Source: Candidatus Saccharimonadota bacterium
GTDB lineage: Bacteria > Patescibacteriota > Saccharimonadia > Saccharimonadales > Saccharimonadaceae
DNA: 37,561 nt
Direction of reading: 5' to 3'
NCBI GenBank assembly: GCA_017552385.1
Contig: JAFZQB010000006.1
Span: 1 to 37,561, forward strand
The notes beneath the pieces are model-generated. The model made no database searches. It saw nothing but the letters and a program-made list of their open reading frames with translations, and was not told where the DNA came from. This document shows positions 3,649 to 34,700 of the stretch, piece by piece. Within the stretch, counting starts at the first letter, position 1; each line of letters begins with the position of its first letter. The translations under genes and the position numbers were made by a program.

Positions 3649-4266
3649 TTACTCGTTTAATTCCCCGCCATTTTCTAGTATCTGAAGATCTGCATTAACA
3701 TTGGCAAGACGTTCTTGTTGATCTTCGGATAATGATGTTTGGTCAAAAGAGTTGAGAATCTCTTTCGCTTCAGAATATCGCTCCATGGCCATATAGTATA
3801 CTGCGGTCGAAAGTTTTGCATCGAATGTCTCTTCGTCTGTTGATTGTACGTTATTAATGATCTCGGTCTGATATTCAACAAAAGCTTCTCCAGAATTTTC
3901 TTTGTTCTCGTCACTGCCAAATTGTTCTCTCTGGCCGGTTTCTGAATCCTTTGCTGTGCTATATCTTTGGGCACTTTTCTGTTCGTCTTCAGATTGAGCA
4001 GTATTGTCTGCTGTCTCAGGAGTATTATCTGTCGTTGTCTCATTCGGCTTGTAGAGGATAAGGAATATTACTGCACCGATTACGAGCAAGGCCAAGAGTA
4101 TCCCTAATATCTTAGCTACTCGCTTTATTTTGGCGTCGTCTGGATTAACAGGAGTGACATTAGGCACAGTAGCGGCAGTGCTTGAAGCTGGCTCACTGGG
4201 CTGAGGATTTATATTGTTGAATGGGTTTGCTTCACTTTGTATGGGTGGTTGATTGTTGTTTTCCAT
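3649..4266 (-). CDS. hypothetical single-TM protein, cotranscribed with the pilin-like adhesin
   Basis: A 205-aa protein with a Pro/Asn/Ser-rich N-terminus (about 1-45), one membrane helix (about 51-72, KILGILLALLVIGAVIFLIL) and an acidic, Thr/Glu/Asn-rich region. The C-terminus has an alpha-helical part (VYYMAMERYSEAKEILNSF) that looks like a single TPR-type hairpin. It lies 14 nt downstream of the stop of the 1108-aa pilin-like gene, with AGAAAGG as a probable ribosome binding site, so the two form an operon. The role is unknown. An accessory or assembly partner of the large pilin-like protein is an inference from context only. Confidence 0.72.
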   Translation of the reverse strand: MENNNQPPIQSEANPFNNINPQPSEPASSTAATVPNVTPVNPDDAKIKRVAKILGILLALLVIGAVIFLILYKPNETTTDNTPETADNTAQSEDEQKSAQRYSTAKDSETGQREQFGSDENKENSGEAFVEYQTEIINNVQSTDEETFDAKLSTAVYYMAMERYSEAKEILNSFDQTSLSEDQQERLANVNADLQILENGGELNE

Positions 4267-4280
4267 TTTGGCCTTTCTTA

Positions 4281-7200
4281 TTAATCCTTATCCATAACAC
4301 ATCGGACTGAATATCCGAAATGACGGCGCGCGTTATTAGTACCAGGTTGCACGTTGCCAGAGTAGAGGTACAAGCTGTAAGCATCTTCTGTGTTGATCGT
4401 GGTGCTACTCCAGTAGAGTCCGTATGTGCCAACTGAGTAAACCTTGGTGCCGGCATAGCCAGCAAGTGAGAAGTTAATTGGCGCAGTCGTTAAGCTACTC
4501 TGACCAACAAGCCTATCAAGCTCATAGAATTCGCCATAGGTGTCACCTGTTGGTAAATGCCATCCTTTAGGACAAATGTCACCGTCCACATTGCCACTAG
4601 TCTTAGAGCTAATGCCGTGGCCAGCTGTTGCAGTATACCAGTTATAGTATATCCCATAAGTGTTCAAGTTAGCCGTGCTATACTTTATAGACTCAACGGA
4701 ATCAGCGCTGAATCCGCTATCCATGGCGGCCGGTCTTTGATTGGCGATACTCATAAAGGCATTTGTTGGGTTGTTAGTGTTTGCGGCAGTTATATTCTCA
4801 GCGAAGTTCGAAAGATCGAGGCGAAGGTTTTCAGTCATCCAAACATTATTATCTCTTAGTAGCGTTACCTTGTAGATGGCGCGGTTACGTGAATCACAAA
4901 GCTGTATGGTCTGGCCAATATTCCTCAAAGTATTTGTCCAGTTTTGCATAGTTGGATACCCAAGATCTGTACAAGTTGATGTCTGAGAGCTGCCATTAGA
5001 TCGCCACTGTGCGTAAAGTTTAATGAAGCTATCGCGTGGTGCAAGGTTGTTGACGCTCTGGCTGTTAGAGTAATTGGTCCCTGTGCCATTCGCCTTAGTG
5101 TTCCAGCCTCTAAAGGTATAGCTATTGCGGACAAACGGATTAGAAGTAAGATTGACCGCAGAATTGACTGGCGCGTATTGGACAGTATGGTTTTGCGTTC
5201 CGTCATTCGCCATGAATATAATTTGATAGCCTGCGGAAGTCCAAGTTGGGTTTATCTCTAATGTGCCAGTAACGGTATAAGACATGTCGGAGTTGCTCAC
5301 GACGTATCCGGCTTTAGGATTGACGATAACGCGAATTGTAGTGCCGCCTGAAACTGGTTGATAGAAATCTATGACGTCATCCGCAGCTTGGATGCCATCA
5401 ATAAACACGTCGAAAGTAAACCCAGTTCTACCACTGTTAACAAATTCTCCATTAATGACCGAGTTGACATCAACCCAGATACCCGTGTTTGACCATTGCG
5501 CATAAAGCGTTATGGATTTATCTCTTTTCGCTAAATTATATACAACTTCACGGTCAGTATAAGATATACCTGTGCCGTTTGCCTTGGTATTCCAACCATT
5601 AAAGCGATACCCGCTTCTGAAGAAGGTGTTGAAAGTGAGCGGAGTGTTTTCGCCACGATTAATTGTTTGTACTTTTGATGTGTAGCCCGAAGCGCCATTA
5701 GGCATGAAGACTACGAGATACGTATCATGAGCCCATTGAGCATAAAGCGTAACGGTTTGATTAGCTTCCGCTAAATCTGTGACTGCTTCACGATTCGAGT
5801 AGGATGTCCCTCTGCCGTTCGACTGGGTGTTCCATCCTGCGAAATGATAATCCGTTCGAGTGAAGGTGTTATTTGGGAGATTAACGGTCGTTCCAGAACG
5901 AACAGTCATAGAGCTCATATAGCCAGAGCCACCATTTGCATTAAAGTTGATTTGGTAATAAGCTTCATCCCACCTGGCATAGAGCGTAATCGTACCGCCT
6001 GCGCTAGTGAGATTACGAACAAAGTCTTCATCTCTATAGCTTATGCCCGACCCATCGGCTTCGGTGTTCCATCCAGTAAAGTAATAACCTGTCATTGTGA
6101 AAGTGTTCTTTGGCAGCTGCCCAACTTCATTGAGATAGTACTTTGTCGATGGCATAGTGCCGCTACCGCCATTCGCATCAAAGGCCACTGTATAGTTGAG
6201 CCGAGATTGCGTACCACAATAGTCGATACTGTCATATGATGGTTGGCCGATGTTAGTAATCGTAGACATATTATTGATGTAAACTTGTGGCACTGTACTG
6301 CTACAATGAACTGCGCCTTGAGAGAAGTAGATGCTAAGCGTAGTATTGCCGTGAGACGATTCATTAGCTACGCCTACAATCTCGCCATTTACCAAGACTT
6401 CGAAGTGGCCAGTAGTTGTGACTGTCATCTTGAGATTGAATTGCGAGCCAACGTCTGCAACCGCTCTTTCTCTTACGTAAATAGACCCGCCATTCTGATC
6501 GAGCGACATCCTAATCGGCCCCATCGAAATATCTAGCATTCCGCCTGATCCAGTCTGAATGCCCGAGGTGTTGATATCGGCGGTAAATTCAAAGCCATTG
6601 TTGGCGTCGACAGTGTGTTCTACCCCTTCGTTAGTTGCTGCTGCCGTGTAGCCTCTGAATATAATTTGATTTGGCGTAACCATCATATGCTCTGTTGGCT
6701 CTACGCCACATGTCCCGACACTAGTATCGGTATTATTGACGCGATGCCAATCGACAATGTAAGATTCCCCAGTCGTAATGTCCGGCATAACCCTAGCTTG
6801 ATCTGGGTTAGATACCCGTATAGTCGATCCAATCGTGGAAGAGCCATTGCCGCCTGGTTCATCCCAACAAGTACGAACATAGAAATCGTAGTAGTCTGGG
6901 CGGAAAGAACCGCCTTCGTGATGTGAACAGTCAATTCCATTTTCAGACTCTACTGCAGTCACCCATATTCCTTCAGCGGCATACAAATTGTCGATGTAAT
7001 TTTCTGCTGATAAATCTGAGTCTGATAAATTCTTTTGTTCTATCTGCGACTCACTATATCCAAACAATAGGCGTGGATACGTGCTTGATTGACGAAGATT
7101 ATTGTTATCCGATACAGGAAGGTCTTGAGACATAATTAGGTCGGAGATGCTTGCGCTATTGGTCCCGTTAATTATGTCTTTTACGCTTGCAGGATCAAGG

Positions 7201-7607
7201 ACCCTAGGATTGATCACAAATGCATTATTAGGAAGCTTCTCGTATAGTTCTGCGCAAGAATGCTCGCTGCCATTGTAATTAGTATAGAAATTAGGATTCT
7301 CCGTGATTAGATCGCTATAACTATAGGCGCGATTAGTCAATTCCTCCCATATTTCGGTATAGGTCTTAGTGTCTATAGGACCTTCTGCAGCATATGCATT
7401 GGCGATAAATCTAATAGACTCTGCCTGCGCATCAATCTCTTGACGCGCCATAGTGATTTCCAAAGCCTTCTGAGCTTCCAATAAGCCATGGTTCATTAGC
7501 TCAATAGTACCGATGGCGACAAGCCCAAAAATGCCCACCGCGAACATGACTTCAATCAAGGTATCACCAGAGAGAAAACGCAAAAATCTTTTTTTTGTTT
7601 TGACCAT
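4281..7607 (-). CDS. giant type IV pilin-like adhesin: prepilin N-terminus, LamG-like region, InlB B repeats, FISUMP domain
   Basis: An 1108-aa protein that begins with a class III (prepilin) signal. A basic 14-residue leader ends in Gly14, followed by DTLIEVMFAVGIFGLVAIG, with Glu at mature position +5 and the hydrophobic helix at about 17-40. The +1 residue is Asp rather than the usual Phe or Met. After a helical spacer (about 45-200), residues 305-460 look like a LamG/concanavalin-type beta-sandwich. InlB B-type repeats follow at about 471-547, 548-626, 629-705 and 793-868, each with a GYxFxGWNT core and ending LYAxW. A different beta-module is inserted at about 706-792. The C-terminus (about 880-1104) is a FISUMP domain (WMTENLRLD, GDICPKGWHLPTG, YWSSTT, SVRCV). 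A TATAAT lies 11 nt upstream of the ATG. It is probably displayed on or with type IV pili and binds a surface; the ligand is unknown. Confidence 0.88.
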   Translation of the reverse strand: MVKTKKRFLRFLSGDTLIEVMFAVGIFGLVAIGTIELMNHGLLEAQKALEITMARQEIDAQAESIRFIANAYAAEGPIDTKTYTEIWEELTNRAYSYSDLITENPNFYTNYNGSEHSCAELYEKLPNNAFVINPRVLDPASVKDIINGTNSASISDLIMSQDLPVSDNNNLRQSSTYPRLLFGYSESQIEQKNLSDSDLSAENYIDNLYAAEGIWVTAVESENGIDCSHHEGGSFRPDYYDFYVRTCWDEPGGNGSSTIGSTIRVSNPDQARVMPDITTGESYIVDWHRVNNTDTSVGTCGVEPTEHMMVTPNQIIFRGYTAAATNEGVEHTVDANNGFEFTADINTSGIQTGSGGMLDISMGPIRMSLDQNGGSIYVRERAVADVGSQFNLKMTVTTTGHFEVLVNGEIVGVANESSHGNTTLSIYFSQGAVHCSSTVPQVYINNMSTITNIGQPSYDSIDYCGTQSRLNYTVAFDANGGSGTMPSTKYYLNEVGQLPKNTFTMTGYYFTGWNTEADGSGISYRDEDFVRNLTSAGGTITLYARWDEAYYQINFNANGGSGYMSSMTVRSGTTVNLPNNTFTRTDYHFAGWNTQSNGRGTSYSNREAVTDLAEANQTVTLYAQWAHDTYLVVFMPNGASGYTSKVQTINRGENTPLTFNTFFRSGYRFNGWNTKANGTGISYTDREVVYNLAKRDKSITLYAQWSNTGIWVDVNSVINGEFVNSGRTGFTFDVFIDGIQAADDVIDFYQPVSGGTTIRVIVNPKAGYVVSNSDMSYTVTGTLEINPTWTSAGYQIIFMANDGTQNHTVQYAPVNSAVNLTSNPFVRNSYTFRGWNTKANGTGTNYSNSQSVNNLAPRDSFIKLYAQWRSNGSSQTSTCTDLGYPTMQNWTNTLRNIGQTIQLCDSRNRAIYKVTLLRDNNVWMTENLRLDLSNFAENITAANTNNPTNAFMSIANQRPAAMDSGFSADSVESIKYSTANLNTYGIYYNWYTATAGHGISSKTSGNVDGDICPKGWHLPTGDTYGEFYELDRLVGQSSLTTAPINFSLAGYAGTKVYSVGTYGLYWSSTTINTEDAYSLYLYSGNVQPGTNNARRHFGYSVRCVMDKD
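5004..6197 (-). repeat. InlB B-type (Listeria-Bacteroides) repeat array in the pilin-like adhesin
   Basis: There are four copies of about 76-80 aa. Each has a [V/I]xFxxNGGxG or similar opening, a NTFxRxxYxFxGWNTxxxGxGxxY core and a closing TLYAxW. Three are in tandem and the fourth is separated from them by an unrelated module of about 87 aa (5232-5492). Confidence 0.85.
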
Positions 7608-7681
7608 TTATATATATTATTATATATGCTTATGTTAAAGTCAATGGTACGCTGATAAAAATCTTCACTATTTGATTAGCA

Positions 7682-16730: not shown

Positions 16731-18338
16731 TTATACTACGCGAGAGACTTCTTCGATGGTAGTCACTCCTGAGAGCGCCATGAGTAAGCCTTTCTGTTCT
16801 AGCGTCAACATACCGTTTTTACGCGCGGTTGCTTCAATCTTCTTGGCATTAGCGTCGGCTACACTACCGCGAAGATATTCAGAAATTTCATCATTAACGA
16901 CTAATTGCTCCATGATTACTGCGCGTCCGGCGTAGCCAAATGGATTTTCTTCAGTCGGGACAGGGCGATAAAGTCGAATGTTATCTGGGTTGAAGCCTTC
17001 GACTCTGTCTAGAGTCTCACGGATATATTTCTTAACCATATCGTCAGGTTCATATTCTTCTTTGCTGTCGGTAAGCCGGCGTACTAAGCGCTGAGCGACG
17101 ACGAGGCGAATGGAATTAGCAAAAATTGGGTTAGTGCCAATGAGATCAATCATGCGAGAAAAGGCGGCAGAGCTAGAATCGGCATGGAATGAGCTCAATA
17201 CAAGGTGACCAGTAATAGATGCTTGGATGGCGGTTTTGGCGGTATCGGCATCACGAATCTCGCCAACCATCACAACGTCTGGGTCAAGACGTAGTACCGA
17301 GCGAAGAGCTTCGGCAAATGAGCCGCCATTATCAGTCTTGATTGGAATCTGCGAAATACCCGTAATACCATATTCGATTGGGTCCTCGAGGGTAATGATT
17401 TTCTTGTCAGACGTGTTGAGGGCGTTTAACATAGAGTAAAGCGTGGTCGATTTACCTGAGCCGGTTGGACCAACCATAAGAACGAGCCCTCTTGGTTTTT
17501 GGATTATTTCATTTATTTCAAGTTTTTCATCGTCAGTAAGGCCAAGAAGGTCGAGTTGTAAGAGGGACTCGTCAAAATTAAATAGACGAAGTACGGCGTC
17601 TTGGCCATACATAGTTGGCACTGTTTCGACGCGGACGTTCAATATGTGCGAAGAGTTATCGCGGTGTATTTCGGTTTGAAGATGGCCTGATTGCGATTTA
17701 GCACTGGCAGTAGATATATTAGCGCGAGAAGAAAGTTCGCCCATAATAACGCGATAGCGATCTTTGCTGAGATTGGCAACTGGATGGAGTATGCCGTCGA
17801 CGCGCATGCGAACTCGAATTTCCGTACGGAGATTTTCGATATGGATATCGGAAGCAGTAAGCCTATCGGCTTGATCAAGAAGAAAGTCAAAGATTTTGTC
17901 CGAGGAGACAGAGTTCAAGGTTTCGGATACTTCTGCGATGGTTTCGGAGTCGCCCTCGGTAGATATCTTGATATCGTCATAATGTATTTCCTTCGGTGGG
18001 TCGTAACGAAGCATAAATACACGGAATGCTGAACTGGAAATTAGGAAGAAGTCAACGCGTTCTCCCTCTCGCTCATAGCTGTCTCGAATCTCGTGCAAAA
18101 GATGACGCGGGGTCTGTGAAGTAATCATGAACTGGAAATGCTCGCCATTGCCTCCTTTAGAAAGTGGCAGGATGTAATTTTTATGCATCTCTTCTTTGTC
18201 GAGAAGTCCTGGAACTAGCGGAATGGAGTTCTCGAACTCACGAGTATCGAGATATGGAAGACCAAGAATTCTGGCTCGACTTCTGGTCGCGTCCTCTTCA
18301 TTGTCGCGGCGCCTCATTTGGCGTTCTTCTTCGTTCAT
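16731..18338 (-). CDS. type II/IV secretion ATPase, PilB/GspE family
   Basis: A 535-aa hexameric assembly ATPase that powers type IV pilus extension or a related secretion system. The N-terminal domain is about 20-110 (RILGLPYLDTREF). SDIHIENLRTEIRVRMRVDGIL marks the N2 domain. Walker A is GPTGSGKS (290-297), the Asp box is LEDPIEY (317-323), Walker B is DPDVVMVGEIRD (352-363) and the His box is ITGHLVLSSFHAD (375-387). The CxxC pairs that bind zinc after the AQRLVRRL motif in classical PilB/GspE are absent (LTDSKEEYEPDD). TGt-TATAAT (18346-18351, minus) ends 7 nt before the ATG. It is the only obvious pilus-assembly gene here and could serve the pilin-like adhesin at 4281-7607. Confidence 0.92.
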   Translation of the reverse strand: MNEEERQMRRRDNEEDATRSRARILGLPYLDTREFENSIPLVPGLLDKEEMHKNYILPLSKGGNGEHFQFMITSQTPRHLLHEIRDSYEREGERVDFFLISSSAFRVFMLRYDPPKEIHYDDIKISTEGDSETIAEVSETLNSVSSDKIFDFLLDQADRLTASDIHIENLRTEIRVRMRVDGILHPVANLSKDRYRVIMGELSSRANISTASAKSQSGHLQTEIHRDNSSHILNVRVETVPTMYGQDAVLRLFNFDESLLQLDLLGLTDDEKLEINEIIQKPRGLVLMVGPTGSGKSTTLYSMLNALNTSDKKIITLEDPIEYGITGISQIPIKTDNGGSFAEALRSVLRLDPDVVMVGEIRDADTAKTAIQASITGHLVLSSFHADSSSAAFSRMIDLIGTNPIFANSIRLVVAQRLVRRLTDSKEEYEPDDMVKKYIRETLDRVEGFNPDNIRLYRPVPTEENPFGYAGRAVIMEQLVVNDEISEYLRGSVADANAKKIEATARKNGMLTLEQKGLLMALSGVTTIEEVSRVV

Positions 18339-19679: not shown

Positions 19680-22016
19680 ATGAAATTCCAAGGTCTTTCT
19701 CGCGAAGATGTGCGTGAGAGGGTGCAGGCAGGCCAAGATAATAAACCGGTGAAGACTCCATCAAAGTCGGTGGCTAGGGTAATTATTGACAATACCTTCA
19801 CATATTTTAATGGCGTATTTGCAGCGATAGCAACCGTGCTCATACTTGTAGAGTCATATCGTGATCTGTCATTTCTTGGTGTAATCCTGGCAAATACACT
19901 TATCGGTATTATCCAAGAGTTACGAGCAAAAAGTGCGCTCGATAAGTTGAACATGCTAAATATCCAAAAGATAAGTGTGGTGCGAGAAGGCAAGATGGAG
20001 ACTGTACCCGTAAACGAGTTGGTGCTAGATGATGTGGTACGCTTCAAGGCTGGCGATCAAATACCGGCAGACGCAAAAGTGCTCGATGGGAACGTAGCGG
20101 TGAATGAGGCCTTGCTCACAGGTGAAGCCGATGAGATTCAAAAGGGTCATGGAGTTGAGTTGTTGTCTGGGAGTTTTGTAGTATCGGGCGAATGCTATGC
20201 CGTGCTTACGAGAGTTCGCGCTGACTCATACATTTCTCGGTTGACCATGCAAGCAAAGGCCATCAAAAACGGCGAGCAATCTGAGATCATACGGTCGCTC
20301 AATCGAATCGTACGAGTGGCAGGGATTGCCATTATACCTGTCGGAGTTTTAGTTTATGGGCAACAGATGCTAGTCAGTCATTTACCGATTAACGTTAGCG
20401 TACAGGGCGCAGCGTCCGCCGTACTTGGAATGATCCCCGAAGGGTTATTCTTGCTTGCGAGCGTGAGCTTAGCAATTAGTGTAATACGCTTAGCTAAGGA
20501 CAAGGTGTTGGTCCATGAGATGAAGTGCATCGAAACGCTTGCGAGAGTGGATGTACTATGCGTCGATAAAACCGGGACGATTACAAGCCCAGATATGAAG
20601 GTACGGGAATGGGTGGCGCTTAGCGAATCTAAAGATACAGAGGAGCTGATTGCTGGCTTTGTAGCCTCACAGATGGCCGACAACGCAACGATGAAGGCAT
20701 TAAAAAAATATTTTAAGGTAAAAAGAGCTAACTTTGAGGCGGAAAAAGTATGGGGTTTCTCCTCAAAATATAAATATAGCGCAGTAAGGCTCAATAAGAA
20801 GAATTATGTGTTGGGTGCTCCAGAATTTGTCCTGGGAGACACTTATGGTGATTATAAGAAAGAGATCCAACAGTATACAAGAAAGGGATATCGTGTACTG
20901 GTTTTTGGCGAATATGATTCCCCGCTCCAAGATCAGGGGCTTGATAAGCCAGTCAAGGCGCTGGCAATGATTGTTCTAGAAAACCCAGTACGGAAAACCG
21001 CAGTAGAAACATTTCGTTACTTCCGAGAACAGGGCGTTAAGGTGAAAGTAATATCTGGCGACAATGTGCTCACGGTGGCAGAAGTCGCTCGGCAAGCGCA
21101 AATAGAGGATGCAGACAAATACATTGATGCTTCCACATTGACGACCGATGAGCAACTTTGCGCAGTGGCTGAAGAATATACGGTGTTTGGCCGCGTGACG
21201 CCAGAACAAAAAAGAAAACTGATAAAGGCTTTACAGGCGAAAAAGCATTATGTCGCAATGACTGGCGACGGCGTAAATGATATCTTGGCGCTAAAAGACG
21301 CTGATTGTAGCATTGCGATGGCGTCCGGTAGTGAAGCTGCCGTGCAAGCTGCTCAATTAGTTCTGTTAGAATCTGACTTCTCTAAGATGCCCAAAGTTGT
21401 AAAAGAAGGACGTCGAGTTGTGAATAACCTAGAACGATCGGGCAGTTTATTCATTGTAAAAAATGTTTTTTCGTTCATCGCGGCAATCCTAACGTTGGCC
21501 TTCAGAACAAGATATCCGATGCTTCCGGCGCAAGTGTCTATGTTGTCCGTTTGGGCAATTGGGCTCCCTTCATTCTTCCTTGCACAAATGCCTAATGAAA
21601 ATAGGATCGAAGGAAAGTTTATGATGAACATCCTCGGTAAGGCTATACCAGCTGGTATAGCGAGCGTCATAATAGTATTCATGGCATTGTCCATAGGCCG
21701 AACTATTGGGATACCCGAGTCGGAGCTCTCCACGACGTGTACGCTGGCGTTTGGTATAGTCGGGCTAATATATTTATACCGTATCTGTCAGCCACTTAAT
21801 CTATACCGTACAATAGTGCTTGCTGGGTGTATTATAGGCTTAACGGTTTGTTTCTGGTGGCTCGGCTGGGCATTTAGTCTTTCGACTGAAATCTCTTCAA
21901 CAACACTACTGCTTTGCCTAGGGCTTGGGGTATTAGCATGTCCTATGCTTATTTTCTTCCCGAAATTAATGCGCACAAGGCTTGAAAAATTCGTTACAAA
22001 AATAGAGCGTAAATAA
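19680..22016 (+). CDS. cation-translocating P-type ATPase (CtpE/PacL-like, probably Ca2+)
   Basis: A 778-aa P-type ATPase. The actuator motif is LLTGEADE (about 146-152), the membrane motif PEGL is at about 253-256, the phosphorylation site is DKTGTIT (Asp296), and KVISGDN and MTGDGVNDILALKDADCSIAM form the hinge. It has about ten membrane helices in total. There are no CPC/SPC or N-terminal metal-binding motifs, so it is not a heavy-metal pump. PEGL and overall form fit the CtpE-type branch linked to calcium in actinobacteria. The TGES motif reads TGEA. ATG at 19680 follows TATAAT (19668-19673) by 6 nt. Ion specificity is an inference from resemblance. Confidence 0.85.
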   Translation: MKFQGLSREDVRERVQAGQDNKPVKTPSKSVARVIIDNTFTYFNGVFAAIATVLILVESYRDLSFLGVILANTLIGIIQELRAKSALDKLNMLNIQKISVVREGKMETVPVNELVLDDVVRFKAGDQIPADAKVLDGNVAVNEALLTGEADEIQKGHGVELLSGSFVVSGECYAVLTRVRADSYISRLTMQAKAIKNGEQSEIIRSLNRIVRVAGIAIIPVGVLVYGQQMLVSHLPINVSVQGAASAVLGMIPEGLFLLASVSLAISVIRLAKDKVLVHEMKCIETLARVDVLCVDKTGTITSPDMKVREWVALSESKDTEELIAGFVASQMADNATMKALKKYFKVKRANFEAEKVWGFSSKYKYSAVRLNKKNYVLGAPEFVLGDTYGDYKKEIQQYTRKGYRVLVFGEYDSPLQDQGLDKPVKALAMIVLENPVRKTAVETFRYFREQGVKVKVISGDNVLTVAEVARQAQIEDADKYIDASTLTTDEQLCAVAEEYTVFGRVTPEQKRKLIKALQAKKHYVAMTGDGVNDILALKDADCSIAMASGSEAAVQAAQLVLLESDFSKMPKVVKEGRRVVNNLERSGSLFIVKNVFSFIAAILTLAFRTRYPMLPAQVSMLSVWAIGLPSFFLAQMPNENRIEGKFMMNILGKAIPAGIASVIIVFMALSIGRTIGIPESELSTTCTLAFGIVGLIYLYRICQPLNLYRTIVLAGCIIGLTVCFWWLGWAFSLSTEISSTTLLLCLGLGVLACPMLIFFPKLMRTRLEKFVTKIERK

Positions 22017-22064
22017 TTATCGTATTATTTGACGTCCATTGGTGGCGGCGCTATAATTTTATTA

Positions 22065-23009
22065 ATGGGCGGAATTGTCAAAGAGGTTATTAGTTTCTTC
22101 CGGCGTAGTGATTTTGTTGAAGTAATCTTTTTGTATTTAAGCGAGCACTATGAGCTGCTCCTGATTGCGGCGGCTATTATTTTTATTATGGTATTAAGTT
22201 TGTGGGTAATCTTAGAAAGATTACGGAAGAAAGGTTGGGTTGCGCTGATCCCATTATACCGTTTCGTTGTGTTATTCAAGGCAATTGGTCTCAGGACATG
22301 GTGTGCCGTTTTAATGCTAATACCAGGTGTTAATATATCTATGCGAATAGTATTTTATATCGCACTCGCTAAGAGGTTTAACAGGAATTATTTCTTTGTG
22401 CCGCTACTAGTAATATTGCCGCTGGTATTCTTGCCGATTGTAGCATTTGGCGAAGGACAACATATCTATGTCAAACGTGAACGAAAACTAAAGAAAATAG
22501 ATTCCAAACACGTAAGAGATCGAGAGCATTATAACGTAGAACGGCCATTGCCCAAGGAGCGATATGTTGCTTATGAGGACGTAGGCGAAGCTAAAGAAGA
22601 TGTAATGTCTATGGCGGAATTAAGGAAAGAACGAGCACAGGCGCAAGTCAAGAAGATAACAACAAAAGTCCAATCTGAGTCAACAAAGAGCATAGTGGAG
22701 AGAAAAACCGTTGCCGTGAAGAAAATGATGCCAGAAATGAAGCAAGGGCCGATTGGAGAAAAGTATAGCAATGCCGAAGCTCGGTATGAACGTCTTCTTA
22801 AAGAACAAGAAGCGAGACAAAAACGACGCGAACAGGCGAAAAAGAAAATGGTAAGTAATACCCACGCTCCCGTGGATAGACCCATGCTTGGCGTGCCGAA
22901 TGCGCACTTAACAGCTAATGACGTTCGTGCGTCTGTAAACACTACGAAAAAAATTGAAGCAAAGCCCGAGCCAAGACCATCTGCAAGGCGAACTAGGATA
23001 GACTTTTAG
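22065..23009 (+). CDS. DUF5684-type membrane protein with long basic C-terminal tail
   Basis: A 314-aa protein. The membrane part (about 25-140) has four or five helices and the DUF5684 pattern: GWVALIPLYRFVVLFKAIG, LMLIPGVNISMRI, YIALAKRF and PIVAFGEGQHIY. The remaining about 170 residues are Lys/Arg/Glu-rich and helical, with likely coiled coil at RYERLLKEQEARQKRREQAKKK. ATG at 22065 is chosen because TATAAT (22052-22057) ends 7 nt upstream; a longer frame to 22029 runs through the promoter. DUF5684 is found mainly in small-membrane proteins of unknown role. The tail may contact nucleic acid or the cytoskeleton, but this is not shown. Confidence 0.78.
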   Translation: MGGIVKEVISFFRRSDFVEVIFLYLSEHYELLLIAAAIIFIMVLSLWVILERLRKKGWVALIPLYRFVVLFKAIGLRTWCAVLMLIPGVNISMRIVFYIALAKRFNRNYFFVPLLVILPLVFLPIVAFGEGQHIYVKRERKLKKIDSKHVRDREHYNVERPLPKERYVAYEDVGEAKEDVMSMAELRKERAQAQVKKITTKVQSESTKSIVERKTVAVKKMMPEMKQGPIGEKYSNAEARYERLLKEQEARQKRREQAKKKMVSNTHAPVDRPMLGVPNAHLTANDVRASVNTTKKIEAKPEPRPSARRTRIDF

Positions 23010-23017
23010 CCTTTAAA

Positions 23018-23045
23018 AACTTCCGGAGTATTCCGGAAGTTTTTT
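23018..23045. terminator. bidirectional Rho-independent terminator
   Basis: A 10-bp stem AACTTCCGGA/TCCGGAAGTT with GTAT loop, A-run on the left and T-run on the right. It lies between the convergent genes at 22065 and 23058 and can serve both. Confidence 0.9.
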
Positions 23046-23057
23046 GAATGGCGAAAG

Positions 23058-23966
23058 CTATTCTTCTCTCCTTTTCTTACCTATGATGCCGGTGATAACG
23101 CGGTACAGAATGACTATGACCAGAGCACATATGATGACGAGCAACCATATTGGACAAACGATAACAATCTTGGAAATCTCGTCAGTGACGCCCTCAAACT
23201 CAACGGAGTATTCAACGCGGAAGATGCCGATAGATGGGGTGCTTTCCCAAACTACTTCAGTAAGACGGGTGCCACCAGGCATGATAACATTTTCTTGGGG
23301 TTTATTCTCGTTAGTATAATATTCTTCACCGCCGAAAAGTGGATAAACTTTGAGAGTGTGTTTGGCGCGCGAATGGACATTACCTAGGTTAGTGATGGAA
23401 GCGCTACCCTTAATATCCCCCGAACTAATGAAGCCTGCTACTTCTATAGAATTGAGTCGTCCTTTTCTAATAGTTTCGCCGGCTACCTCAGCGTAAACAA
23501 GGTGAGCCATAGCATATTTCTCTTTGATCATACCCGTATCGACGCTATCAGTGGTAACTACTATGGCAAAGTACTGGCCTCCAGCTGGAGTATCTTCTGG
23601 CACTTTAATTCTAAAAGCTATTTCTTTCATTTCATTTGGTTGAAGCGTGCCGGAGGTCTCTTCTGGTGTAACCCAATCAACTATTTGTGAATAGCTCTCG
23701 TCATTTTCATACAGAATGCTATCATCATTGTTCATCTTAAACGGCTTAACGGCAATTTCGTAATCTGTGGGCGTAGTGGACTCTGCAGAGCTTGCCAAAA
23801 TTATAGTGACTACATCTTCACTACCTGGGACTAATACTTTATCTTGATTGATTGGCGAGATGATAAATCCTCCCGCAGAGCAGCTTCTGTTCAGAGTGAA
23901 AACACTGAATAGCACAGCCACGGCTAGGCTCAGGACTGTTATGGACTTGTACCTAAAAACTTTCAT
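23058..23966 (-). CDS. surface protein resembling DUF916/WxLIP proteins
   Basis: A 302-aa protein with a signal peptide (about 1-31, ending near CSAGG), a beta-rich outside part and a C-terminal membrane helix (about 268-292) followed by a basic KKRREE tail. SPINQDKVLVPGSEDVVTIILASSAESTTPTDYEIAVKPF and IAFRIKVPEDTPAGGQYFAIVVTT resemble DUF916/WxLIP domains. The second part (SITNLGNVHSRAKHTLKVYPLFGG, VWESTPSIGIFRVEYSVEF) resembles the host-binding half. In Firmicutes such proteins sit beside secreted WxL proteins and bridge them to peptidoglycan. Here a secreted beta-sandwich protein is two genes upstream. TATAAT lies 22 nt before the ATG, and AGAGGA acts as Shine-Dalgarno. Confidence 0.72.
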   Translation of the reverse strand: MKVFRYKSITVLSLAVAVLFSVFTLNRSCSAGGFIISPINQDKVLVPGSEDVVTIILASSAESTTPTDYEIAVKPFKMNNDDSILYENDESYSQIVDWVTPEETSGTLQPNEMKEIAFRIKVPEDTPAGGQYFAIVVTTDSVDTGMIKEKYAMAHLVYAEVAGETIRKGRLNSIEVAGFISSGDIKGSASITNLGNVHSRAKHTLKVYPLFGGEEYYTNENKPQENVIMPGGTRLTEVVWESTPSIGIFRVEYSVEFEGVTDEISKIVIVCPIWLLVIICALVIVILYRVITGIIGKKRREE

Positions 23967-24005
23967 TTCCTCTCTTTTCCTGTTTATTATACTGATTGTA
24001 TCATA

Positions 24006-24581
24006 CTAGTCGTTAGTAGTCGACGAACATTTGAAGCCTTGCTTCTCGTAGGCGGACTGGAAATCGTTAAGGGTAGAAGGAATTATCTTACTATCTAGCA
24101 GAAAATATGAAGCCGTGTTTGTGGTTAAATCTTCTGGCTCAGCATAGAGGGCGAGAGTATTCTTGTTCTCGTAGATCGTGAACTTGTTATTAAATTCGTC
24201 AAACGATAGCCCGTCTTTTTCTAGGCTTTTGGCGAAATCAGCGCGAAGATATGGTTCCTCCGCATCGAGCAAACCACGGTTTTCGTAACTTAACGCATAC
24301 TCAAAAGATAGCTTAATAAGGCTCCCGGAATCGTCAAATATTCCGACAAAGCGCACATCATTGTTTGTGGTTGACCCTTTATTCAGCTTATCGTATGCGC
24401 GTTTTGAAGCAATACACTCAAGGGATTTGGTTTTGACGCTATCTGGAAAAGAACCCGTCGTCGTGTGCTTGCCGTTCACAAAACTAAGAAGCAGTATGGC
24501 GATTACAATGACAACGATCGCCAATATAGACAATCTAAGGTACGGGTTTTGAAATAATTTGTGGCGTGAGTCGGCTGTCAT
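24006..24581 (-). CDS. hypothetical single-TM protein in surface-protein group
   Basis: A 191-aa protein I do not recognise. It has one membrane helix near the N-terminus (about 17-36, LSILAIVVIVIAILLLSFVNG) and an outside domain of about 150 residues with two widely spaced Cys (KSLECIASKRAYD and FKCSSTTND) that could form a disulfide. The start at 24581 is chosen because AGGAGG lies 3 nt upstream; a longer frame to 24686 runs through the -10 and terminator. A TGa-TACAAT lies upstream of this leader. It lies between the DUF916-like gene and the secreted beta-sandwich protein, so a role in surface assembly is plausible from context. Confidence 0.7.
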   Translation of the reverse strand: MTADSRHKLFQNPYLRLSILAIVVIVIAILLLSFVNGKHTTTGSFPDSVKTKSLECIASKRAYDKLNKGSTTNNDVRFVGIFDDSGSLIKLSFEYALSYENRGLLDAEEPYLRADFAKSLEKDGLSFDEFNNKFTIYENKNTLALYAEPEDLTTNTASYFLLDSKIIPSTLNDFQSAYEKQGFKCSSTTND

Positions 24582-24639
24582 TTTCCTCCTGTTATTTTCA
24601 TGGTTAATTGTATCATGATTTATAAAATTATAGAATAAA

Positions 24640-24666
24640 AAAAGAGACCACTTAGTGGTCTCTTTT
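24640..24666 (-). terminator. strong terminator after the secreted beta-sandwich gene
   Basis: A 12-bp stem AAAAGAGACCAC/GTGGTCTCTTTT with TTA loop. On the minus strand it ends with a U-run of seven. It separates the secreted protein gene from the two genes downstream. Confidence 0.9.
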
Positions 24667-24675
24667 AGGCGCAAA

Positions 24676-25218
24676 TTACGCTGCATCTAGGAAGTGAACT
24701 GTATAGGTAACCGTACCAGTGTAAGTACCAGCTGGAGTAGTGGTTAGGGTAGTACCCTGATAGCCATTAACCGTGAACGTCACTGGGCTAGTAGTGATTG
24801 TAGTTGCGGTGACAAGCTCAGTATCGGTGCCAAGCGTTACGTAGCTACCGCCATTGACGGCAACTTTATAAGCTGGGAGCGTGTCGGAGCCTTTAGTCAA
24901 AGTAGTACCGGTCGCGGAGACGCTATAACGAGCGCCAGCGTTACAGTTGATGGAGACGCTATTAACATTATTCCCTGAGCCAGCCGTAATTGACCATGGG
25001 TCACCTGGCGTGACTTGAGTAGAATAAGTGTTGCTCCATGCTTGATAGCTGTCGCCATCACGTGGCGTAAGCGAGCAGCCCTGTAGAACAGTAACGTTGA
25101 GCGTGTCTGTCCCAGCTACCACGTCTTGAGCATCGGCGAAGGTCGCGAGCGGAGCAAGTGCTACGCCAAGGCCCGCAACAACACCTAAACCGGCCATGAT
25201 TTTTGTTGATTTGCGCAT
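24676..25218 (-). CDS. secreted beta-sandwich surface protein (spore-coat-U/WxL-like)
   Basis: A 180-aa protein with a signal peptide (about 1-30, GVALAPLATFADAQD). The mature part is Thr/Ser/Val-rich and beta-structured. It has VTVLQGCSLTPRDG and VSINCNAGARYSVSATG with two Cys, and ends PAGTYTGTVTYTVHFLDAA. This matches the general form of spore coat U/fimbrial-type and WxL-type surface subunits. It has no sorting signal or C-terminal helix. It has its own strong promoter, a 46-nt leader, a Shine-Dalgarno AAAGGA 7 nt before ATG and a strong terminator. This suggests a monocistronic, abundant structural protein. The DUF916-like protein downstream is a candidate anchor. Confidence 0.75.
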   Translation of the reverse strand: MRKSTKIMAGLGVVAGLGVALAPLATFADAQDVVAGTDTLNVTVLQGCSLTPRDGDSYQAWSNTYSTQVTPGDPWSITAGSGNNVNSVSINCNAGARYSVSATGTTLTKGSDTLPAYKVAVNGGSYVTLGTDTELVTATTITTSPVTFTVNGYQGTTLTTTPAGTYTGTVTYTVHFLDAA

Positions 25219-25270
25219 ATATATTCCTTTTTATATTTATATTATTAATAATATGACCTTTTGTGGTTTG

Positions 25271-25299
25271 ATTATACAACGAGCTTGCGCTTATTGCAA
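25271..25299 (-). promoter_or_regulatory. promoter of secreted beta-sandwich gene
   Basis: On the minus strand TTGCAA (25294-25299) is 17 bp from a perfect TATAAT (25271-25276). The start site is predicted near 25264, giving a leader of about 46 nt, long for this genome. A CTTGC/GCAAG inverted repeat overlaps the spacer. Confidence 0.75.
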
Positions 25300-25433
25300 G
25301 AATAATTTTAAAAATATTATGTTTTTCTTAGTTTTATAGACTAACTCAAGAGAAAGAATATAAAGAATATGTTGTAAAAAATACATGTACTTCTTGCATA
25401 CCTTGTCAGAATAAACGATGAAAAGTAAAAAAT

Positions 25434-25448
25434 AAGGCCTTTGGCCTT
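25434..25448 (-). terminator. Rho-independent terminator after tRNA-Arg(TCG)
   Basis: A 6-bp stem AAGGCC/GGCCTT with 3-nt loop is followed on the minus strand by ATTTTTT. The stretch from here to 25270 holds no gene I can support. Confidence 0.75.
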
Positions 25449-25458
25449 CTCTTTTTGT

Positions 25459-25535
25459 TGGTACCGCCTGAGGGATTCGAACCCACGACCCCTTGTTCCG
25501 AAGACAAGTGCTCTAATCCACTGAGCTAAGGCGGC
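25459..25535 (-). tRNA. tRNA-Arg(TCG)
   Basis: The acceptor GCCGCCT pairs with AGGCGGT, with G1-U72 as a wobble. A73 is present and CCA is encoded. The anticodon stem CTTGT/ACAAG encloses CTTCGGA, giving anticodon TCG (CGA and perhaps CGG codons). It lies 30 nt after tRNA-Pro(TGG) and probably shares its transcript. Confidence 0.93.
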
Positions 25536-25565
25536 TTGTCTCTCTAGGCGTTTAAAATAACGAAA

Positions 25566-31759: not shown

Positions 31760-34700
31760 CTAAAAGTCAACTTTAGGTTGTTCTTCTTCGTCTTCCTCTC
31801 GCTTTTTTCCAGCTAGAAGCAGAAGGCCAGTAGTCGTGACAATACCGGCTCCAACTATGGCAATAGTACCAAAAATACTAGTTGTGTTGTCCGAGTTGCT
31901 AATATTTGCGGCAGAGCTTACCGCTTCATCGAGTTCTTTATTTACACCAAGCGGTTGAGTATTTGTTTCTTCTGAACTGTCTTCTTTGGTCTCATCTTTA
32001 GTGTTTTCTTCACTATTTGTTTGCTGAGACATGGTCTGAGCTTGCATAGGAGCAGAGTAGCTTGATTGATAGCTCTGCTGCGGAGCAGATTGTGGCTCAG
32101 GGTTTTGCTGGGATGGTTCTTGGGACCCTGGAGTAGCTTCTGGTTCGTTGCTTTGTTGATTGGACTCGGCAGGAGTATTGTCGGCGATACAGCGAACTGA
32201 GGCGCCATTAGAGCGAATATAGCCATTGCTCGTAGCGACAAGTGAAGGGTAGATAGACATATCATACATAGCATTACTTCCCATCATCGTAGACGACCAG
32301 TAGTAGCCTTTGGAACCCTGATCCACGATATTCTTATCGCTGAAGTAGCCCGCAGAAGAAAAGCCAAAGTCGGATTGGAGCTTGGTGGAACCAGCAGCAT
32401 CGTTTGTAATGGAGTTAGCATCGTTTAGCTCCTTGAATTCTCCGGAGTTGCCACCGGTTGGAAGACGCCAACTGGAAGGACAGAGACTATACTGAGCATC
32501 GCCAGTTCCAGAATTTTCTGCATAAACGTAGGTGCCAGCAGAAGCAGCGGCGTAGTTGTAGAGGGCGCCATATTTGTTGCCATAAGTGTCTGAGGTGGTT
32601 TGAGCAGCAAACTTTGGATCGGTATAAGAAGCCTTCCTCTTTGAGGGCGAGGTAGTGCGATCCCACTCCGCAAAGGTGGAAGCGCTAACAAATTTGGTGG
32701 GGTCATCCGGTAGATTAGTGTTGGTATTATCGAGTTGAGTGACGCCAGAAGCAAAGTCGTAACGACCGAGGTTGAGGTTATCTTTCATCCAGCAGGCGGT
32801 AGAGGAGCCATCAGAGCTCATCTTCCATTTGCCAATACGATAAGTTTGATTATCGCGAGTGTCAATTACTGTTCCAGTCTGCCCGGTAGCAACGGCAGAG
32901 CAGATGGTTGCTGTCATGTCTTGCATTTTATAATAGCCGTTATATTTGGTCTTGCCGGCAGAAGCATAGGCGCTGTCGAAGGTAACCTCTTTGGCGCTAG
33001 CAGTGAGAGTAGCATCAGAAGAGCCCATGGTGAAGGCAGTGCTTTGAGTGGAGGTGGAAGCTACGCTAGCACCTGTACCTGAGATAGACCAACTATCAAA
33101 CTCATAGCCAGAAGCGAAGGTCATGTTGATGGTATGGGTGGAGTTTTCTGCGAGAGAGAGAGTAGTATTGCTGCTATATGTTACGCCATCGACTTCAATA
33201 CTGGCAACGTTGGCGCCGAGGGAGAGGGAGAAGTTGTAGTGAGGGGCAGAGACGCAGCGAACGGCTTTCCCATAATTTTTATTGGTGCTAGAATTAGCCG
33301 TTCCGGGATTTACGCCCGTACCCATATACATATAATAACTGGTATTGTTGTTGTTGGCCTTACCGCTCCAATAAAAGCCGTTACCTCGAAGCCATGTAGA
33401 TGCTTCTTTATAACTCCCAGATCCAATATAGTTATTAGGATATTCGCGCCATTTAATACTTGATGCTGTTCCTGACGAAGTGATTGCGCCAAGCTTGTCG
33501 CTGAGATAATAAAAGCCGCCTGAAGTATTGCCTCCACCGATGTTAGCATCATCACTTCCATATCCTAAATGCCAGCCAGTTGGACAAATATCTCCCGGCA
33601 TATTGCCGTCACTACTCGTTTTACTATACGTTCCATGCCCGGCCGTAGCGGTGTACCAGTTGTACATAACACCGTAAGAATACCAGCGAGAGGCCTGATC
33701 GCCCGAGGTACGGTTGGATGTAGTTCCCGTGATGTTCCCCAGCCCGAATGAGATCTGGTCCATGCAAGTTGGCCCATTGGTACTATCCATATCGTTGCAA
33801 GTTCTGAAGTAGTTATTGGCATAGGCTTTCTTTCCAGTGTTGTCAGTAATATTTGCTAGAGTAATATCTGTATCAATAAAAGTACTAGTAGGGTTATTGG
33901 TGTTACTGGCATTAATAGTAGTATTTGGATCGGCAGGATTAAGTCTTAGGTTTTCTATCATCCACCAGTTACCATCAGCTAGTTTGGCGATAGCATAAAC
34001 GTTGGTGGCGTCACGGGAGTCATTAAGGGCAATGACGGAACCGATAGATTTGCCACTATAAGTAGAATCAGATGGGTTGAAGGTCTGCATCGTAATGTTC
34101 TGTTCTGGAGCGACCCAGACAGCGTAAAGAGTAAGCGTATTATCGTCGTCGGCATATTCTGGAACCGCGATTGTCTCGTTTGGACCATAGATGACTGGAT
34201 CGTTAGTCAAGTCGTTATCGACCAGATGCGTCCAAGCATCTGGATCGACGGACCAGCCAGCAAAACCATAGCCATCCCTTCTGAAATTAGAAGCCCATAA
34301 TGTAACTTTGCTGTATTCATAAATACCAGTTTGGTTGCTCATGGTACCATCATCGCCACCATTGATATTGTAGACAATTTTTCTGCTTCTACCCCAAACG
34401 GCATAAAGCGTAACTTCTAGTGGGTTTAGCCCGACAACGGTAGGAGCAGTGTACGAATCTTTATCTGTATATTCGACTATCGTAGAGTTCTCTGCTGTAG
34501 CCCATCCCGAGAAGCCGTAACCAGATTTGCTGAAGGTATTGGAGCGCAAGGTTCTGGAAGTGTTTGCCGGAACACCTTGATCCGTCATAGCGCCAGTACC
34601 GCCATTGCTATTGAAGTGGATGATGACTTCTGGGACCCAGACAGCATAGAGGGCAGTTGATAGTTGGTAGAATGTATATGTTTGTCCTGGTTGATATAGT

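Follow-up and report, generated by a model that had tools for sequence, protein, structure and literature searches.

The pilin gene and its surroundings

The window analysed here (the whole stretch of DNA, 37,561 bp) corresponds to one entire contig, C7, of a 766-kb genome split into 13 contigs and 97% complete, which belongs to an ultrasmall Saccharibacterium akin to strains from ruminant guts. Its reverse strand carries a gene encoding a long modular prepilin, whose parts are reported in Table 1 together with the flanking features. The mature protein has a computed mass of about 120 kDa and a computed pI of 4.7.

Table 1. Features of the modular prepilin gene and of the adjacent sequences (positions in the window; aa numbering from the start codon)
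Feature	Position	Strand	Basis
Promoter-like site TTGACT-N17-AATAAT, ending 8 nt before the ATG	7616..7644	-	Sequence
Modular minor prepilin (predicted), 1108 aa, ATG start	4281..7607	-	ORF call, Pfam/NCBIfam, family comparison
Class III leader peptide, 14 aa, predicted cut after Gly14	7566..7607	-	Sequence; G-1 and E+5 in 80/80 homologues
I-type pilin module, aa 1-270; beta strands aa 208-266; invariant Cys118 and Cys247	6798..7607	-	Alignment, profiles, AlphaFold2
Pilin helix alpha1, aa 16-75	7383..7562	-	AlphaFold2, pLDDT mostly above 90
Concanavalin-A-like lectin (LamG-like) module (predicted), aa 277-455	6243..6779	-	AlphaFold2 and fold search
InlB B repeat 1	5976..6194	-	PF09479
InlB B repeat 2	5736..5957	-	PF09479
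InlB B repeat 3	5496..5720	-	PF09479
Segment between InlB repeats 3 and 4, aa 705-793	5229..5495	-	No Pfam match over cut-off, no clear counterpart in relatives
InlB B repeat 4	5049..5228	-	PF09479
FISUMP domain, C-terminal, aa 903-1106	4290..4901	-	TIGR02145, PF09603
Single-pass membrane protein, 205 aa, 14 bp past the pilin stop	3649..4266	-	ORF, comparison

The N-terminus reads MVKTKKRFLRFLSG/DTLIEVMFAVGIFGLVAIG, where the slash marks the predicted cut; in the leader context (MVKTKKRFLRFLSG/DTLIEV), Gly14 occupies position -1, Asp15 position +1 and Glu19 position +5, so that the class III signal pointed out in the preliminary description is indeed present. The only strongly hydrophobic stretch spans residues 15-38, and a C-terminal membrane anchor, sought along the 1108 residues, is absent. 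Taken alone, the sequence scores below the curated cut-off of the N_methyl profile PF07963 (14.5 vs 21.2 bits) and below the equivalog cut-off of GspI, TIGR01707 (15.4-16.9 vs 44.35 bits). Since these single-sequence scores are weak, the signal was judged from its conservation in the family and from the operon context of the homologues. An AlphaFold2 model built on an alignment of 46 homologues (pLDDT 80) displays the long helix and the strands of the pilin module, followed by a beta-sandwich at residues 288-451. The results of a fold search with this model were filled by matches to the lectin domain, which masked the pilin head, and among the sequences of the PDB the pilin profile found only weak pilin matches (E 0.25-0.57).

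The short distance between the promoter-like site and the start codon suggests that the gene is possibly transcribed without a leader. A -10 box ending exactly 6 nt before the ATG, nearly always of the extended TGnTATAAT type, was observed in 33 of 79 homologues of the pilin module (L073-L148), and such exact spacing suggests transcripts beginning at the start codon. Downstream, the small membrane protein gene is likely co-transcribed with the pilin gene. A homologue of its product (44% identity, E 4e-37) is encoded 25 bp behind the tailed pilin of locus L070, and a more distant relative (E 2.5e-6) adjoins the minor pilin genes H, J and K on contig C9 of the source genome; the 205-aa protein may be an accessory of these pilins.

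The N-terminal module probably belongs to an I-type minor pilin family

The pilin module (query residues 1-290) was retrieved from 83 genomes of the same genus among those searched, the source genome included. Eighty named homologues were fetched, mostly of ruminant-gut origin and from records titled Candidatus Saccharibacteria or, in a few cases, just "bacterium". Both G-1 and E+5 are present in all 80 (79 by pattern, L143 by eye, as G/DTMIE), including each of the 18 tailed ones, and the two cysteines listed in Table 1 are invariant in an alignment of 17 sequences. The window copy is an orphan; 63 of the 80 homologues are embedded in type IV pilus (T4P) operons, either directly after pilD, in the order pilB-pilT-pilC-pilD, or between H-like and J-like pilins, the latter placement occurring in about 31 relatives. 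In the operon copies lying next to other minor pilins, the reading frames often overlap.

When 46 members of the family were scanned with NCBIfam profiles, GspI was the commonest and strongest match (41/46), and ComGE was also found in 12/46. The pilin encoded upstream at locus L093 matches GspH, and the last, K-like pilin of the set, located downstream, does not possess Glu5, as is known for K subunits (PMC10191384). Taken together, the GspI/ComGE matches, the upstream GspH and the K-like pilin devoid of Glu5 indicate that the gene order is H-I-J-K and that the family holds the I position. The reading of the window protein as a pilin is well supported, and its N-terminal 270 residues or so are assigned to the I-type (GspI/ComGE/PilI-like) minor pilins; the family was kept out of the GspI equivalog class because the TIGR01707 cut-off was not reached. 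The preliminary description had mentioned adhesin-tipped minor pilins in general; the carrier can be specified as the I-type subunit, encoded elsewhere in the genus within T4P operons.

Type IV pilus genes in the source genome

A complete T4P cluster is located on contig C12 and comprises PilM, PilN, PilO (these three named by gene order and sequence appearance rather than by profile), a small protein, PilB, PilT, PilC and PilD. It is the only complete cluster of the genome, and its PilC is the only platform protein. The preliminary description had named a lack of T4P genes elsewhere in the genome as evidence against its proposal, and this cluster answers that objection. Contig C9 carries the genes H, J and K, and the space between H and J is devoid of an I gene; on C12, pilD is immediately followed by an integrase-like gene, at the site where many relatives carry the I gene. 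Only two I-type genes were found in the genome, that of the window and a paralogue of about 803 aa on contig C1, both long-tailed; outside the window, the genome was read as stretches around matches, and its 97% completeness limits how far the absence of a tailless I copy can be taken. Within this limit, the I gene appears to have left the T4P operon in this lineage and to survive only as two tailed paralogues.

The window also contains, at 16731-18338 of the reverse strand, a second PilB/GspE-type ATPase, which is 45-81% identical across relatives and has no PilC of its own in the genome. Its vicinity to the pilin gene (9 kb) had been put forward as support for a pilus function. This argument was rejected: the same paralogue is present in 30 of 30 relatives searched, so that the distance is uninformative, and the T4P cluster with the sole PilC lies on a different contig.

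The modules of the tail

The region previously described as LamG-like has no Pfam match, and yet the AlphaFold2 model predicts a lectin-type beta-sandwich for it (residues 288-451), resembling concanavalin-A-like lectins and glucanases (best Z 12.3 over 154 residues, 3.1 A). The module, named here a ConA-like jelly-roll fold, may bind glycans; its identity to the closest folds is about 10%. Since GH16 and PL7 enzymes are among these folds, it might in principle be an enzyme acting on partner glycans rather than a binder; this is very improbable in view of the low identity and of the absence from the module of both the GH16 ExDx(x)E and the PL7 catalytic motifs, which were looked for.

The lectin module is followed by the four InlB B repeats of the preliminary description, all recovered above the cut-off of PF09479 (Flg_new; whole-protein E 6.5e-40). 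The C-terminal FISUMP domain was likewise confirmed, passing the curated cut-offs of both TIGR02145 (62.7 vs 41.65 bits) and PF09603 (54.7 vs 33.9 bits). IPR011871 is, we assume, the FISUMP entry of InterPro. The AlphaFold2 model of this domain (pLDDT 51) was too poor for a fold search, and no PDB entry was matched when its sequence was used as the query; hence the module-by-module structure prediction proposed earlier yielded a lectin fold and left the FISUMP model unusable. The fusion of a prepilin to adhesin-type modules is supported by the conservation of the signal, by the membership of the family in T4P operons and by the domains of the tail.

Gain, loss and exchange of tails

Most homologues are about 250 aa long, and 62 of 80 end no more than 24 aa past the pilin module. 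The other 18 carry tails ranging from 123 to more than 2000 aa (for L072 and L138, in which the end of the module was not detected, tail length was taken as the total length minus 262 aa). On the tree of the pilin module, parsimony calls for 15 changes of tail state, and at least six changes fall on well-supported branches, which suggests that tails have been repeatedly gained or lost, at least six times, across the genus. Phase variation of the tail was considered and discarded, no out-of-frame tail remnants being found behind the 15 tailless homologues examined. A link between tail and departure from the operon was also dropped: tails occur in 6/15 orphans and in 10/63 operon copies, a difference that is not significant (p = 0.07, two ambiguous loci left out).

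The comparison of the tails points to modules that vary and recombine independently among relatives. The nearest relative, L070, has in common with the window protein the pilin module (59%) and the repeats (54%), and possesses neither lectin nor FISUMP; pilin and lectin are common to the window protein, the C1 paralogue and L074, L077 and L079; pilin, repeats and FISUMP (44%) are common to the window protein and L072, a protein of at least 2262 aa that runs off the fetched stretch and carries five FISUMP and seven InlB stretches. Moreover, the C-terminus of L112, an operon copy, is formed by a divergent FISUMP-like region, which only the alignment revealed. The same type of fusion thus exists in part in other Saccharibacteria, as pilin, repeats and FISUMP in L072 and as pilin and lectin in the three loci above (and in the C1 paralogue of the source genome), and is reduced to pilin and repeats in L070. 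The mix of domains is also less unusual than had been stated, both for the presence of FISUMP or a FISUMP-like region in L072 and L112 and because pilin plus FISUMP ranks among the 15 commonest modular architectures (PMC8179133).

A further C-terminal module, with the signature W...D.DS[HY], recurs at the tips of L077, L079, L037 (the C1 paralogue), L102, L113, L117 and L122; by eye only, it resembles a YfaP/DUF2135-type domain.

Other surface proteins of the genome

The genome encodes further FISUMP proteins, and those with complete ends bear a Sec-type signal and, in most cases, a C-terminal membrane segment. One module type would thus be displayed in two ways, on a pilin and on anchored proteins. 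A tree of FISUMP domains from the pilin and the anchored copies gave, from its branching, no origin for the FISUMP of the pilin. The action of a diversity-generating retroelement on FISUMP was ruled out, the genome having no reverse transcriptase.

The window itself ends within another such gene: positions 31760-37561 of the reverse strand encode the last 1933 aa of a FISUMP/InlB surface protein that is truncated where the contig stops. A piece of this protein (GDILDTTTETDPQTNEYNLTFGVKTD...) also opens contigs C4 and C6, and because these two contigs begin with the same piece as the window end, the assembly was probably broken by repeated surface genes. Lastly, contig C8 (G000:C8, about 21134-25561) contains an open frame of 2188 aa that includes eight InlB B repeats.

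Proposed role of the modular pilin

On the basis of these data, the window gene probably encodes a modular I-type minor pilin of the single T4P of this genome, whose tail, held past the tip, would be an adhesin. If the protein behaves like its counterparts in HIJK-type systems and like the PilA/B/C complex of Streptococcus sanguinis (PMC9934059), the PilD encoded on C12 would cut the prepilin after Gly14; the mature subunit would then associate with H, J and K as the filament begins to form, and would leave the cell at the tip of the pilus. Beyond the tip, the lectin module, the stalk of four InlB repeats and the terminal FISUMP domain would act as an adhesin for the surface of a partner cell, and retraction by PilT would draw the two cells together. 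From this analogy we infer the cleavage, the incorporation, the tip position, the binding of a ligand and the identity of the target as a partner cell; likewise, the gripping of a host or partner cell, suggested in the preliminary description, is a putative role of the tail. What speaks against this scheme is the position of the gene, an orphan that does not share a contig with the T4P cluster and lies 9 kb from a PilB paralogue with no particular connection to it, as well as the GspI and N_methyl scores of this single sequence, which fall short of the curated cut-offs.

The lack of linkage to that cluster would also fit a surface adhesin outside pili, which retains its N-terminus as a plain membrane anchor, and FISUMP and InlB modules do occur in the anchored surface proteins of this genome. 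However, a plain anchor would need neither G-1 nor E+5, and yet both are kept in every homologue; the family is located within T4P operons at 63 of 80 loci, and the other FISUMP proteins with complete ends use a Sec-type signal and mostly a C-terminal membrane segment. We therefore regard such an anchor, the other piece of counter-evidence named in the preliminary description, as unlikely. It might also be supposed that the protein is assembled as an I-type minor pilin whose tail has a part in taking up DNA or in priming the filament and not in adhesion, I subunits being thought to initiate filaments (PMC9934059, PMC10191384) and ComGE-type matches occurring in 12/46 members. The modules of the tail are, however, typical of surface-binding proteins, and the tail must be dispensable for assembly, since 62 of 80 homologues do without it; this makes the supposition quite improbable.

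Returning to the tip-borne adhesin, the survival of the I gene solely as two tailed paralogues (window and C1) implies that the pili may have two alternative tips. A bolder and more doubtful possibility is that, in this clade of gut Saccharibacteria, the I subunit itself has turned into an adhesin, having left the operon, been duplicated and persisted here only in tailed form, with two alternative giant tips. If this were true, one or the other giant adhesin would initiate each pilus and hence form its tip, which would provide a choice between tips for recognising partners.

The means by which Saccharibacteria identify and capture partner cells are still largely unsettled; T4P are implicated, and a candidate ligand-bearing pilin has been tested so far in one oral strain only. 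A core pilin with interchangeable adhesin tails would provide a concrete list of candidates for partner recognition in gut lineages, and tailed/tailless sister pairs (the window protein and L070 vs L071) permit direct tests.

Comparison with known systems

In the literature searched, no paper joining Saccharibacteria and FISUMP was found. Modular pilins as such are an established kind, with more than 1,200 proteins in 264 architectures (PMC8179133). The pilins with IPR011871, a domain whose function is not stated in the body of that survey, are among its 15 commonest types and represent the same graft of FISUMP on a prepilin, to which the window protein adds a lectin module and an InlB stalk. 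Tip adhesins of the PilY1/PilC type are likewise proposed tip effectors; nevertheless, they are not pilins and are defined by the beta-propeller IPR008707, which is absent from the Pfam and NCBIfam matches of the window protein.

Among Saccharibacteria, the PilX1 and PilX2 of Nanosynbacter lyticus (TM7x), compared by description, are minor pilins with extra C-terminal domains like the window pilin. PilX2, without which host binding drops by half, carries a beta-propeller; it has no predicted PilD site and belongs to T4P-2 (PMC12206443). Unlike PilX2, the window pilin has no Pfam match to a propeller family, and its genome has a single PilC platform, with PilT.

The GspI/PilI/ComGE subunits provide the best profile match of the N-terminal module and show the H-I-J-K order also seen in the relatives, whereas the window protein differs from them in its longer pilin module (about 250 aa), its 840-aa tail and its score under the GspI cut-off. 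A parallel in design is offered by PilB and PilC of Streptococcus sanguinis (PMC8179133, PMC9934059), in which a class III signal, Glu5 and a small pilin module are likewise followed by adhesive modules at the C-terminus. A tip location has been proposed for these proteins, and PilC also has a ConA-like lectin module. These proteins are, however, of about 50 kDa, against the 120 kDa of the window protein, and have neither InlB stalk nor FISUMP; moreover, in S. sanguinis the I-like PilA is the non-modular subunit, whereas here the tail sits on the I-type one. What is new in the present case is the absence of a tailless I copy (at 97% genome completeness), the position of the tail on the I-type subunit, its size, and its repeated gain or loss across the genus.
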